From contig OX031058.1 in assembly GCA_943736015.1 (NCBI GenBank), positions 16,641,001 to 16,705,000 of the forward strand: a stretch of DNA of 64,000 nucleotides, in the 5' to 3' direction. Under the pieces are notes generated by a model. The model saw nothing but the letters and a program-made list of their open reading frames with translations, ran no database searches and was not told the origin of the DNA. The position numbers and the translations under genes are program-made. Positions 3,872-62,372 of the stretch are shown in pieces (the stretch's first letter is position 1; each line of letters begins with the position of its first letter). The DNA is from Tridacna crocea (Eukaryota; Mollusca; Bivalvia; Cardiida; Cardiidae).

Positions 3872-4503
3872 CCATTTACAACATTGCTAAATTTTAGCCA
3901 TACCCATATTGAAAGAATAAATAGCAAACAAAACATTACTCAAGTGATAGAACTTGTCTGTCAATAGGTAGAAATGATTGTGGGAAATGGAGGAAATACT
4001 GGTTAGTAGTATTTTCTTCCTTTTCCGCAATATTTTCAAAAGCCTCAAAACTTCATCTTTGCAAGCCAAGGCTGACGATTCACTATGCTAGTCTACCCTT
4101 GGCGGATCGAGCTTGATTTTTACATTGCCTTGATACCCTTTTTCATTGGATGCAGCCGGCTCTAACTGCAACGAATGATATCACTCGTAGCATTTTATCT
4201 TTAAATTATCATTAAAAATGTAATAGAAGATAAACATTGAATCCCACATGGATGTCTGCTTATCGCTTCATGTTAAATAAATGTATTCGTAAGCGGTTTG
4301 TAAAACAATATCTCATTGGCTTTCAGATATATGATGTAAAGGGGGGTAATAACCAGCATCCAATAGAGAGAGCATCACAGGAATCTAGAAATCGGGCTCA
4401 ATCAGCCAAGGTAAGATCGACGTAGTGATCGTAACCTTGGCTCACAAAGATGCAAAACTTTCTCATGGTCTTTTTAACTTGAGGATTTGTGGTAAAGGGT
4501 CAA
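3868..4503 (-). mobile_element. P1 MITE, old, interrupted by a hAT-like MITE
   Basis: Shares its left TTAA (3868-3871) with the preceding copy. The left part runs to 4053 (palindrome with TACTGGTTAGTAGTA centre), then comes the 399-bp insertion, and the copy resumes at 4461 (TCTCATGGTC to GGTAAAGGGTCAA). The right TTAA has mutated to TCAA. Removing the insertion and one CAAAACTT restores a continuous P1 copy. Confidence 0.85.
4054..4452. mobile_element. hAT/Mutator-like MITE copy 1 (C1 family)
   Basis: Terminal inverted repeats CATCTTTGCAAGCCAAGG and, on the right, CCTTGGCTCACAAAGATG. It is flanked by an exact 8-bp duplication CAAAACTT at 4046-4053 and 4453-4460. The inner part has no coding frame of note. 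An 8-bp duplication is typical of hAT elements, but the copy at 35180 has 9 bp, so a Mutator-like origin stays open. Two further copies lie at 35180 and 40100. Confidence 0.88.
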
Positions 4504-10582: not shown

Positions 10583-11327
10583 GTGTATACTAGCTTTATC
10601 TCCTTTTTTCCTCATAATGTTTGCAAGTTTCTTCTTCAGAGTCATAAAATATCTCTTGGCGCTTAGAAAGCATTGAGGGTAAAAAACAAAATGGTGTATA
10701 CTAGCTTTATCTCCTTTTTTCCTCATAATGTTTGCAAGTTTCTTCTTCAGAGTCATAAAATATCTCTTGGCGCTTAGAAAGCATTGAGGGTAAAAAACAA
10801 AATGGTGTATACTAGCTTTATCTCCTTTTTTCCTCATAATGTTTGCAAGTTTCTTCTTCAGAGTCATAAAATATCTCTTGGCGGTTAGAAAGCATTGAGG
10901 GTAAAAAGCAAAAAGCTGTTTACTAGCTTTATTTCCTTTTTCCTAATAATGTTTGCAAGTTTCTTCTTCAGAGTCATAAAATATCTCTTGGCGCTTAGAA
11001 AGCATTGAGGGTAAAAAACAAAATGGTGTTTACTAGCTTTATCTCCTTTTTTCCTAATAATGTTTGCAAGTTTCTTCTTCAGAGTCATAAAATAATAGAA
11101 TCATTTGATGAAGTGTAAGGGGTTTAAAATTCATGACAAAAAGCATTTTTGCAATACCAAGGCAACAGATGACAAATCAAAGCTCACAAATGGCATATGG
11201 CGCATGACAAGAACTCAAGCCGAGGCCATTATTTGCCTTTAATTAATATTTTCTGAAGCTATTAAACTCCTTGAAAGAATTAAACAATGACTAGTTACTG
11301 ATGTGATTGAAGAAGTGGGAAAAGCCA

Positions 11328-18563: not shown

Positions 18564-19049
18564 TAAATGACACATCTTTGGACGGGATCAAATTCAAAGC
18601 ATCTGCAGACAACAAATTATATCTTGTTTAACTCTTTACCACACGAGAAAATTTTAGACTGGTCCAAATTAAAAGCATTTACAGACCACAAAATAAAAGT
18701 GACTGAAAAATTAAAATTTGGTTTGGGAAAGGCAGAAAACACTGTGGGAAAAGGAGAAAATGCTGGTTACCAGCATTTTCTCCTTTTCCCACAGTGTTTT
18801 CAAAAGGCTTCTCTCTCAGGGTCGTTAAAGGCGGGATTGTGTGGTAAAGAGTTAAACGATTTCCGACTAAATTGGCAGAAAATTTTGTGGGAAAAAGAGA
18901 AACTGCTGGTTAACCCATGTTTTCCTTTTCCCACGACATTTTCTATAGACTTCTTTCTCAGAGTCATTTTCTCTTTTTCCCCAGAATATCTTCAATAGGT
19001 TTAATTCTCAAGATCATTAAAACTCCCAAACAGTGTGGTAAAAGGTTAA
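18560..19049 (-). mobile_element. Older P1 MITE, split by the copy at 18628
   Basis: Left part 18560-18627 (ACGGGATCAAATTCAAAGC, ACAACAAATTATATC). It resumes at 18856 with CCGACTAAATTGGCAGAAAA and palindrome GTGGGAAAAAGAGAAACTGC, an internal duplication of TTTTCCTTTTCCC-type sequence, and ends GTGTGGTAAAAGGTTAA. Confidence 0.78.
18628..18855 (-). mobile_element. P1 MITE, intact, nested
   Basis: TTAACTCTTTACCACACGAG to GTGTGGTAAAGAGTTAA. Palindrome perfect and with a mirrored change: CACTGTGGG on the left and CCCACAGTG on the right. Confidence 0.95.
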
Positions 19050-36473: not shown

Positions 36474-36702
36474 TTAACCCTTTCCCAAACGACAAACTTT
36501 TGGACTAGACCAAATTGAATGCATTTGCAGACGACAATTCAACTCTTGCTGAAAAGATTATTTCCGTCTATGATAGGGTAGAAAACATTGTGGGAAAAGA
36601 AGAAAATGCTGGTTACCAGCATTTTCTCCTTTTCCCACAATGTTTTCAAAAGGCCACTAATCCAGACCCGTAAAAACCAGGGATTGTTTGGGAAAGGGTT
36701 AA
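36474..36702 (-). mobile_element. P1 MITE, CCCTTTCCC subfamily, intact
   Basis: TTAACCCTTTCCCAAACGAC to TTTGGGAAAGGGTTAA. Palindrome with one change (AAAAGAAGAAAATGC). Confidence 0.95.
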
Positions 36703-36927
36703 CTCTTTCGGAAACAACAAAATTTTAGACTGGTCCAACTTGAAAGCATTTGCAGACGTCAAAATTGACGCAACTCAAAAATTGAAATATGTACTGGGAA
36801 GGGTGGAAAACCTTGTGGGGAAAGGAGAAAATGCTGGTTACCAGCATTTTCTCCTTTTCTCACAAGGTTTTAAAAAATCTTCTTTCTCAAGAGCCATGAA
36901 AACCCAGGATTGTATGGTAAAGGATTA
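36699..36927 (-). mobile_element. P1 MITE, intact, sharing TTAA
   Basis: TTAACTCTTTCGGAAACAAC to GTATGGTAAAGGATTAA. Mirrored change AAAACCTTG / CAAGGTTTT. Confidence 0.94.
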
Positions 36928-37022
36928 AAGAGAAATCCTGTCAATAGCCACATTCAATTTGTCAGCTTCAAATGATGTCAATTTTGGACACTTGTAAGAT
37001 TTTGTCATTCTATAGAGAGATA
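36924..37022 (+). mobile_element. P1 tail fragment
   Basis: GCCACATTCAATTTGTCAGC, CAAATGATGTCAATTTTGG, AAGATTTTGTCATTCTATAG. Confidence 0.5.
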
Positions 37023-42815: not shown

Positions 42816-43031
42816 CCTTCTCTCTTTACCACACGATCCTGAATTATAACAGAAGCAGTCTCTTGAAAACATTGTGGGACAAGGAGAAAATGCTGCTGAG
42901 CAGCATTTTCTCCTTGTCCCACAATGTTTTCAACCATTTGAAAGATAGAAGTAATCTTTTGAGCTATGATGAACTTGTCCTCTGCAAATTCTTTCATATT
43001 ATTGGAATTCATGATTTTGTTCACTATTTAA
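42816..43031 (+). mobile_element. P1 MITE with several mirrored palindrome changes
   Basis: CTCTCTTTACCACACGATCC to TTTGTTCACTATTTAA. Arms read TGTGGGACAAGGAG and CTCCTTGTCCCACA, centre GCTGCTGAGCAGC: each departure from the P1 consensus is present on both sides. Confidence 0.92.
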
Positions 43032-43777: not shown

Positions 43778-43997
43778 TTAACCCGTTACCACACAACAAA
43801 TTTTAGACTGGTTCAAATTGAAAGCATTTGCAGACGACAAGATAAAGGTGACTGAAAAATTGAAATCTGTTCTGGGAAGGGTAGAAAACACTGTGGGAAA
43901 AGGAGAAAATTCTGGTTTTTCTCCTTTTCCTACAGTGTTTTCAAAAAGCTTCTTTCTCAGGGGCGTCAAAAGTAGGGATTGTGTGGTAATGGGTTAA
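43778..43997 (-). mobile_element. P1 MITE, centre trimmed
   Basis: TTAACCCGTTACCACACAAC to GTGTGGTAATGGGTTAA. Mirrored CACTGTGGG / CTACAGTG in part. The centre is GAAAATTCTGGTTTTTCTCC, so the innermost right arm is missing. Confidence 0.9.
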
Positions 43998-44240: not shown

Positions 44241-44450
44241 TTATCCCTTCACCACACCATCATGATTTTTGATAGCCTCGAGGAAGAAGCCTTTTGAAAA
44301 CATTGTAGGAAATGGGGAAAATGCTGGTAACCAGCATTTTCCCCTTTTTCAGCAATCTAACTGAAGACAGACATATTTCATATTTTGAGTATATCTAATT
44401 TCATGTTTACAAAATTTTAATGCTTTCAATTAGGGCAAGTTTAACAAAAT
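44241..44450 (+). mobile_element. P1 MITE, truncated at the right
   Basis: TTATCCCTTCACCACACC start. Mirrored change GGGGAAAATGC / GCATTTTCCCC. Right arm end and tail partly lost. Confidence 0.78.
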
Positions 44451-61945: not shown

Positions 61946-62147
61946 TTCACTCTCAACCCAACAATCCTGAGTTTTAACACCCTGAAGGAAGCTGCTTTTG
62001 AAAACACTGTGGTAACTAGTATTTGCTCTTTTTTCTTCTCTATTTTCTATCCTTTCTAGAACAAATTTTGCATTTTGAATGAGACTTGGTATGTCGTCTG
62101 CAAAACCTTTGAATTTGGACAAGTCTAAAATTTTGTCATTTGGTTAA
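61946..62147 (+). mobile_element. P1 MITE, shortened palindrome
   Basis: TTCACTCTCAACCCAACAAT start, GAAAACACTGTGGTAACTAG (left arm cut), decayed right arm. Ends TTTGTCATTTGGTTAA. Confidence 0.82.
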
Positions 62148-62372
62148 CTCTTTACCGCACAATCCCGACTTTTAACGACCATGAGAAAGAAGCTTTCTGA
62201 AAGCATTGTGGGAAAAGAAGAAAATGCTGGTAACCAGCATTTTCTTCTTTTCCCACAATGTTTTCTCCCCTTCCCAAAAGAAATTTCAAATTTTCAGTTA
62301 CTTTCATTTTTTCGTCTGCAAATGCTTTCAATTTGGACAAGTCTAAAATGTTGTCGTTTGGAAAAGAGTTAC
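62144..62372 (+). mobile_element. P1 MITE, intact, sharing TTAA
   Basis: TTAACTCTTTACCGCACAAT to TTTGGAAAAGAGTTAC. Mirrored GAAGAAAATGC / GCATTTTCTTC. Confidence 0.95.

Follow-up and report, generated by a model that had tools for sequence, protein, structure and literature searches.

The palindromic core P1 of a hugely amplified transposon in Tridacna crocea carries the same change at mirrored positions of its two arms far more often than the single-arm rates allow. The excess is confined to mirror positions, comprises insertions as well as substitutions, recurs at one base pair in copies that show no close kinship and has a base spectrum linear in the single-arm mutations, while five linked variants have been inherited by subfamilies. 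The explanation that accounts best for these observations, and which is probably correct, is template switching within a hairpin formed by P1, part of its products having been passed on through subfamilies.

The P1 consensus is a 67-bp palindrome with two 33-bp arms and a 1-nt centre (pair 1 adjoins the centre, 33 pairs in all), located in a MITE-like, TTAA-flanked element of about 227 bp. The consensus element ends in TTAACTCTTTACC and GGTAAAGGGTTAA, its terminal inverted repeats are imperfect, and among the 40 best-scoring elements 33 have TTAA at both ends. By these features the element is a non-autonomous, piggyBac-like DNA transposon with a TTAA target. With the MITEs of the piggyBac superfamily the element shares the TTAA flanks and ends that start with CYCTTTA, but it differs from them in its long central palindrome, which is not known as a defining feature of piggyBac elements.

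A profile built on 35 copies from the window (the whole 64,000-nt stretch of DNA analysed here) retrieved 377 non-overlapping copies from the window and twenty 10-kb stretches (L001-L020), 18 of them arbitrary and two bordering the window. All stretches except L020 hold at least one copy (19 of 20). By profile search, P1 elements occupy 22,727 of the 64,000 bp of the window (127 copies, 36%) and 38,497 of the 180,000 bp of the arbitrary stretches (21%), a share that we judge unusually large for one non-autonomous element. Extrapolation to the genome (1.05 Gb, 31 contigs) gives about 1 million copies, fragments counted. The exact inner 35-mer of the core occurs 173,858 times genome-wide, and these are the consensus copies of the counts given below; repeat counts are possibly lower bounds, pattern counts are whole. 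A refined profile (185 near-full copies, looser cut-off) gave 393 hits, 275 of them usable. Searches with Rfam at gathering scores and a tRNA scan gave no match.

The copies of the window on which the argument starts are the following.

42822..43000, minus strand: P1 element, central copy, by profile alignment, with diverged flanks and truncated ends
42865..42931, minus strand: P1 palindrome of 42822..43000, arms 42865-42897 and 42899-42931, centre 42898; inverted repeat I19, 35 nt, 100% complementary, 1 nt between arms
18628..18855, plus strand: P1 element by profile alignment, mirrored pair-26 T>C (subfamily-linked)
36699..36928, plus strand: P1 element, mirrored pair-27 A>C, 3 mismatches
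62144..62371, minus strand: P1 element, mirrored pair-14 G>A (unlinked to relatedness), 1 mismatch
44241..44446, minus strand: P1 element, mirrored pair-13 A>G, 4 mismatches
43778..43997, plus strand: reference element with ends TTAA-CCC...GGG-TTAA and the subfamily-linked mirrored pair-26 T>C

The five copies that the sequence-only reading had put forward as examples, at 42822, 18628, 36699, 62144 and 44241, all read as it described them. In the central copy none of the 33 pairs is mismatched, and two mirrored changes are present, A>C at pair 18 and G>C at pair 2. Its palindrome, calculated as single-stranded DNA, has a folding energy of −40.3 kcal/mol (z −15.3), and the private divergence of its flanks, 0.047, lies above that of 79% of 257 copies. 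Diverged flanks, zero mismatches and two mirrored changes are the leftover expected from the copying of a whole arm, in a single case. Among the first 100 of the 719 arm matches to its pair-18 variant there is one adjacent opposite-strand pair, too few to judge.

Departures from the P1 consensus had been claimed to fall often at mirrored positions, with unmatched changes occurring as well. Both hold: in the 275 usable copies 153 identical mirrored departures are observed and 43.2 are expected from the single-arm rates, and unmatched changes are commoner than matched ones. Co-departure is raised 2.6-fold at mirror positions and 1.2- to 1.7-fold at off-mirror offsets. In a tree built from the flanks only (224 of 296 copies), which separates small subfamilies poorly, mirrored identical co-changes number 39 against 12.3 expected on terminal branches, where off-mirror changes of the same type are raised 1.47-fold, while on internal branches they number 10 with 0.3 expected and the off-mirror figure is 3.6-fold. 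The effect at mirror positions thus exceeds the one that off-mirror pairs owe to shared ancestry. The pooled excess has two sources, subfamily inheritance and a further process specific to mirror positions.

The contribution of inheritance is large. The carriers of the mirrored variants 3C, 8T, 13T, 20C and 26C lie close to one another by their flanks, and these five variants make up 98 of the 165 mirrored changes in the 257 copies. Subfamily differences hence form the majority of mirrored changes in the sample, a point absent from the first reading. The consensuses of clusters of at least four copies each, which take in 79-153 of the 240 copies according to where the cut is placed, show five distinct mirrored arm differences and no single-arm one, with one pair in one cluster undecided, while the flanks of the same consensuses differ at up to 71 positions. 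Common variation is four times lower in the arms than in the flanks (0.048 vs 0.195), and rare divergence is about equal (0.044 vs 0.038 per site). The low common variation together with the equal rare variation implies that the arms are constrained or symmetrised in the source lineages, and the latter that individual copies decay much like their own flanks.

The five linked variants and the cluster consensuses would be well explained if a few source elements had carried mirrored differences and all mirrored copies had inherited them. Yet mirrored G>A at pair 14 is present in 12 copies that are unrelated, apart from two that are duplicates of one another, and seven further mirrored variants, each in three to five copies, also have unrelated carriers. 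At pair 16, described below, three different bases are found mirrored, with no close kinship among the 20 copies compared, and a mirrored insertion reaches 28 times its expectation. Ancestry as the sole cause is therefore very improbable, being countered by the flank distances at pair 16 and by the eight unlinked variants. The sequence-only reading had named a full explanation by a few ancestral subfamilies as a ground for its refutation; such an explanation holds for the five variants, but not for the mirror-specific excess found genome-wide.

Without the six common variants, and with the expectation taken from non-identical doubles, the sample contains 55 identical doubles vs 45.2 expected. 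Arranged by mismatched pairs, observed and expected numbers are 14 vs 3.1 (0-2 mismatches), 9 vs 6.8 (3-4), 10 vs 4.9 (5-7) and 22 vs 30.4 (at least 8; 14 vs 17.5 for 8-12 and 8 vs 12.9 for at least 13). When the expectation is estimated from the single-arm rates, copies with 0-4 mismatches (169) give 23 vs 3.1 and those with at least 8 (48) give 22 vs 18.0. The mismatch count is a biased measure of age, because copying itself lowers it. Arranged by flank divergence, from the least to the most diverged fifth of the sample, the numbers are 4 vs 1.4, 2 vs 4.3, 7 vs 2.4, 14 vs 14.5 and 20 vs 14.4, with no clear trend. The set of 257 copies retains near-duplicates (three in L037/L038/L039, two in L037/L038). 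By itself the sample is weak and would not prove a process beyond subfamilies; the genome-wide counts decide.

These counts cover one pair, pair 16, and one insertion, +1A. With the remaining inner pairs at consensus, pair 16 is changed in one arm in 10,012 copies and in both arms in 691, against 144 expected. The first 50 of the 691 doubles comprise 41 identical and 9 non-identical ones, the identical share expected being 39% (P 8e-10), and identical doubles reach 4.4-11 times the level implied by the non-identical ones. Mirrored T is found 282 times and mirrored G 211 times (C/C doubles were estimated from 50 of the 691 copies), and T accounts for 5,049 of the 10,012 single-arm changes. With the G:C split of the single-arm changes taken from the first 100 listed, the mirrored G/T ratio of 0.75 compares with predictions of 0.54-0.79 by copying and 0.30-0.63 by two hits (P 0.003). 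The mirrored spectrum is thus linear in the single-arm mutation, as if the second change had been copied from the first.

Mean flank distances are 0.275 among ten mirrored-T and 0.362 among ten mirrored-G copies (9 of 10 measurable in each), 0.297 and 0.339 among single-arm copies, and 0.20-0.23 in three draws of random consensus copies; in this measure mirrored copies resemble single-arm ones and exceed the consensus copies. The mirrored copies at pair 16 look like independent events, small families being possible in a set of 20. Insertions, in either one arm or both, are present in at least 4 of the 51 fetched 'mirrored' copies (L047, L055, L094, L106), and the arms of L055 and L094 are not alike in kind; pattern counts consequently mix event types.

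An insertion of one A in the A-run of pairs 8-11 occurs in a single arm in 1,144 copies and mirrored in 52, against 1.9 expected when kinship is ignored; some of the 52 lie close together in the genome. About 55 had been predicted ahead of the count. The off-mirror control, +1A in one arm and a pair-16 change in the other, gives 34 copies vs 33 expected, from a pattern slightly stricter than those behind its expectation, which would lower the latter a little. Per single-arm change, the mirrored form amounts to 4.5% for the insertion (52/1,144) and to 4.0-5.5% for the substitution after removal of chance doubles. By eye, the same insertion is seen in both arms of L106 (T) and L072 (GG), cases that were anecdotal before the genome-wide +1A count.

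Two independent hits followed by selection would also yield mirrored doubles, if only copies with symmetric arms were mobilised and doubles arisen by chance were amplified in this way. The constraint on the arms in source lineages, seen in the common but not the rare variation, agrees with such a scheme, as do the lack of single-arm differences among the cluster consensuses and the location of the sample excess in copies with few mismatches. The scheme predicts, however, a quadratic spectrum with a T share of 0.60-0.67, whereas T makes up 0.46-0.55 of the identical doubles; it predicts about 18 mirrored +1A copies instead of 52; and the ratio of mirrored to single-arm changes is alike for a common and a rare change. 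We regard it as improbable. Still less credible, and the least of the alternatives considered, is an artefact of assembly or sequencing: sequence is difficult to determine in long palindromes and A-runs, but identical substitutions with the single-arm spectrum are not expected from misreading, nor is an off-mirror control at expectation.

Selection of a paired RNA hairpin, such as a small-RNA precursor in which the mirrored changes would be compensatory, had been offered as one possible cause. The palindrome does fold very stably (DNA parameters). Nevertheless, G-T and A-C mismatches are about equally frequent (99 vs 87 and 186 vs 177, element orientation), the arms decay like the flanks, as the rare divergence given above indicates, and the copies are, by reasoning, too many for selection on each. 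With no clear wobble or strand bias and neutral decay, RNA selection was rejected, and we consider it highly implausible.

Hairpin template switching accordingly remains the preferred explanation. That the hairpin serves as its own template, one of the possible causes named by the sequence-only reading, is supported by (i) identical doubles far above independence; (ii) the off-mirror control at expectation; (iii) the mirrored insertions, and (iv) the linear spectrum. In the model proposed, the 33-bp arms with their 1-nt centre can fold back on themselves, and for about every 20 surviving single-arm changes, base or small insertion, one would also have been written into the other arm, resynthesised on the hairpin template. 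Some mirrored versions arising in source copies would have been multiplied, giving subfamilies whose arms differ from one another and are still palindromic. The copying may act in resident copies, in source copies or in the transposition cycle; the molecular step itself we infer from its footprint.

Long conversion tracts were not seen. The 47 mirrored sites lie no farther from mismatches (3.2 pairs) than random sites do (3.7 pairs; P 0.86), but decay after the copying could have wiped out such a tract. A near/far comparison made without gaps was distorted by indels and set aside. Outer-arm mismatches are 0.079 in consensus (50 copies), 0.095 in mirrored (51) and 0.130 in single-arm copies (39 of 40), 0.108 and 0.136 in sample copies with one (60) and two (18) inner mismatches, and 0.139 in non-identical doubles (9), in a test without power. 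A moment calculation shows that copies whose inner arms are intact hardly differ in age, so that this test cannot tell a one-step from a two-step origin.

The rewriting might also take place at the birth of each copy, if the transposition cycle regularly included hairpin-templated synthesis or gap repair by which one arm was rewritten from the other, so that new copies started perfect. Single-arm changes of the parent would then become mirrored or vanish, which would explain both the lack of single-arm differences among the cluster consensuses and the excess in copies with few mismatches. We hold symmetry at birth to be rather unlikely, slightly more so than before, because the mirrored excess shows no clear trend with flank divergence.

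Centre departures from T (element orientation) are to A in 39 of 63 cases, namely 33 of 56 in non-B sample copies and 6 of 7 in 40 fetched copies, one A-centre copy being counted twice through the duplicated segment L037/L038. The excess of T>A has a P of 7e-5 to 0.012, dependent on the reference spectrum, and the A-centre copies form no clade, 25 of 31 nearest neighbours having T. Such an excess of the complement would be expected if the core were now and then inverted, another effect of template switching, though a single base carries little weight as evidence. In subfamily B (15 copies) the centre is C in 11 copies and G in 4, complement only.

That template switching can make inverted-repeat arms alike is already established. 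Abraham and Hazkani-Covo (2021, PMC8604942) describe recurrent, independent multi-base events between inverted-repeat arms in yeast genes; one arm templates the other and the arms become identical, as proposed here, and spacers can invert; the mirrored changes of P1, by contrast, extend over a family of MITE-like elements whose exact inner cores number 173,858, and no tract signature was found. Template switching is also reported to maintain RNA hairpins, where compensatory changes are possible in one step (Monttinen and Loytynoja 2022, PMC8794818); the mirrored changes of P1 are likewise explicable in one step, but in mobile DNA without sign of RNA selection. Quasipalindrome mutations in E. 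coli and yeast (PMC7202029, PMC3820800) are reported to make imperfect palindromes more perfect by a template switch, as would happen in P1; those are laboratory mutations, whereas in P1 the outcome is read from natural copies. A search of titles and abstract openings, with subscription papers mostly outside it, turned up no account of MITE palindromes whose arms change in mirrored fashion.

The P1 family in one genome amounts to a natural experiment on palindrome mutagenesis, internal controls included. The share of arm mutations copied across, about 4.5% of the single-arm number, is measurable per position, base and indel type. P1 suggests how a palindrome can stay perfect through transposon evolution without selection on each copy, and it cautions that mirrored, compensatory changes alone are no proof of a functional RNA hairpin.

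The genome has 118 PF13843 matches. Both termini are readable in 11 of 20 fetched loci, where only 3-7 bases after TTAA are common with the P1 element, and no autonomous element with P1-type terminal repeats was found among these. Recent piggyBac-domain elements with termini TTAACCCTTTATATAC, about 98-99.9% identical within groups, are present in L025-L031 and L035, the one in L027 apparently inserted in a P1 element at TTAA. L037-L040 contain stretches, about 4.1 kb long, that are nearly identical to one another; they hold a PF13843 match and several P1 elements without differences between loci, which implies that P1 copies were duplicated within a larger unit. In L017 three identical copies (634-786, 2306-2458 and 3978-4130) are spaced by exactly 1,672 bp, suggesting part of a larger tandem repeat. 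A tandem array at 10583-11094 of the window (111-bp unit, 4.6 copies, 96% alike) is matched several times by P1 queries at about 70% identity and seems to contain a diverged P1-like stretch.
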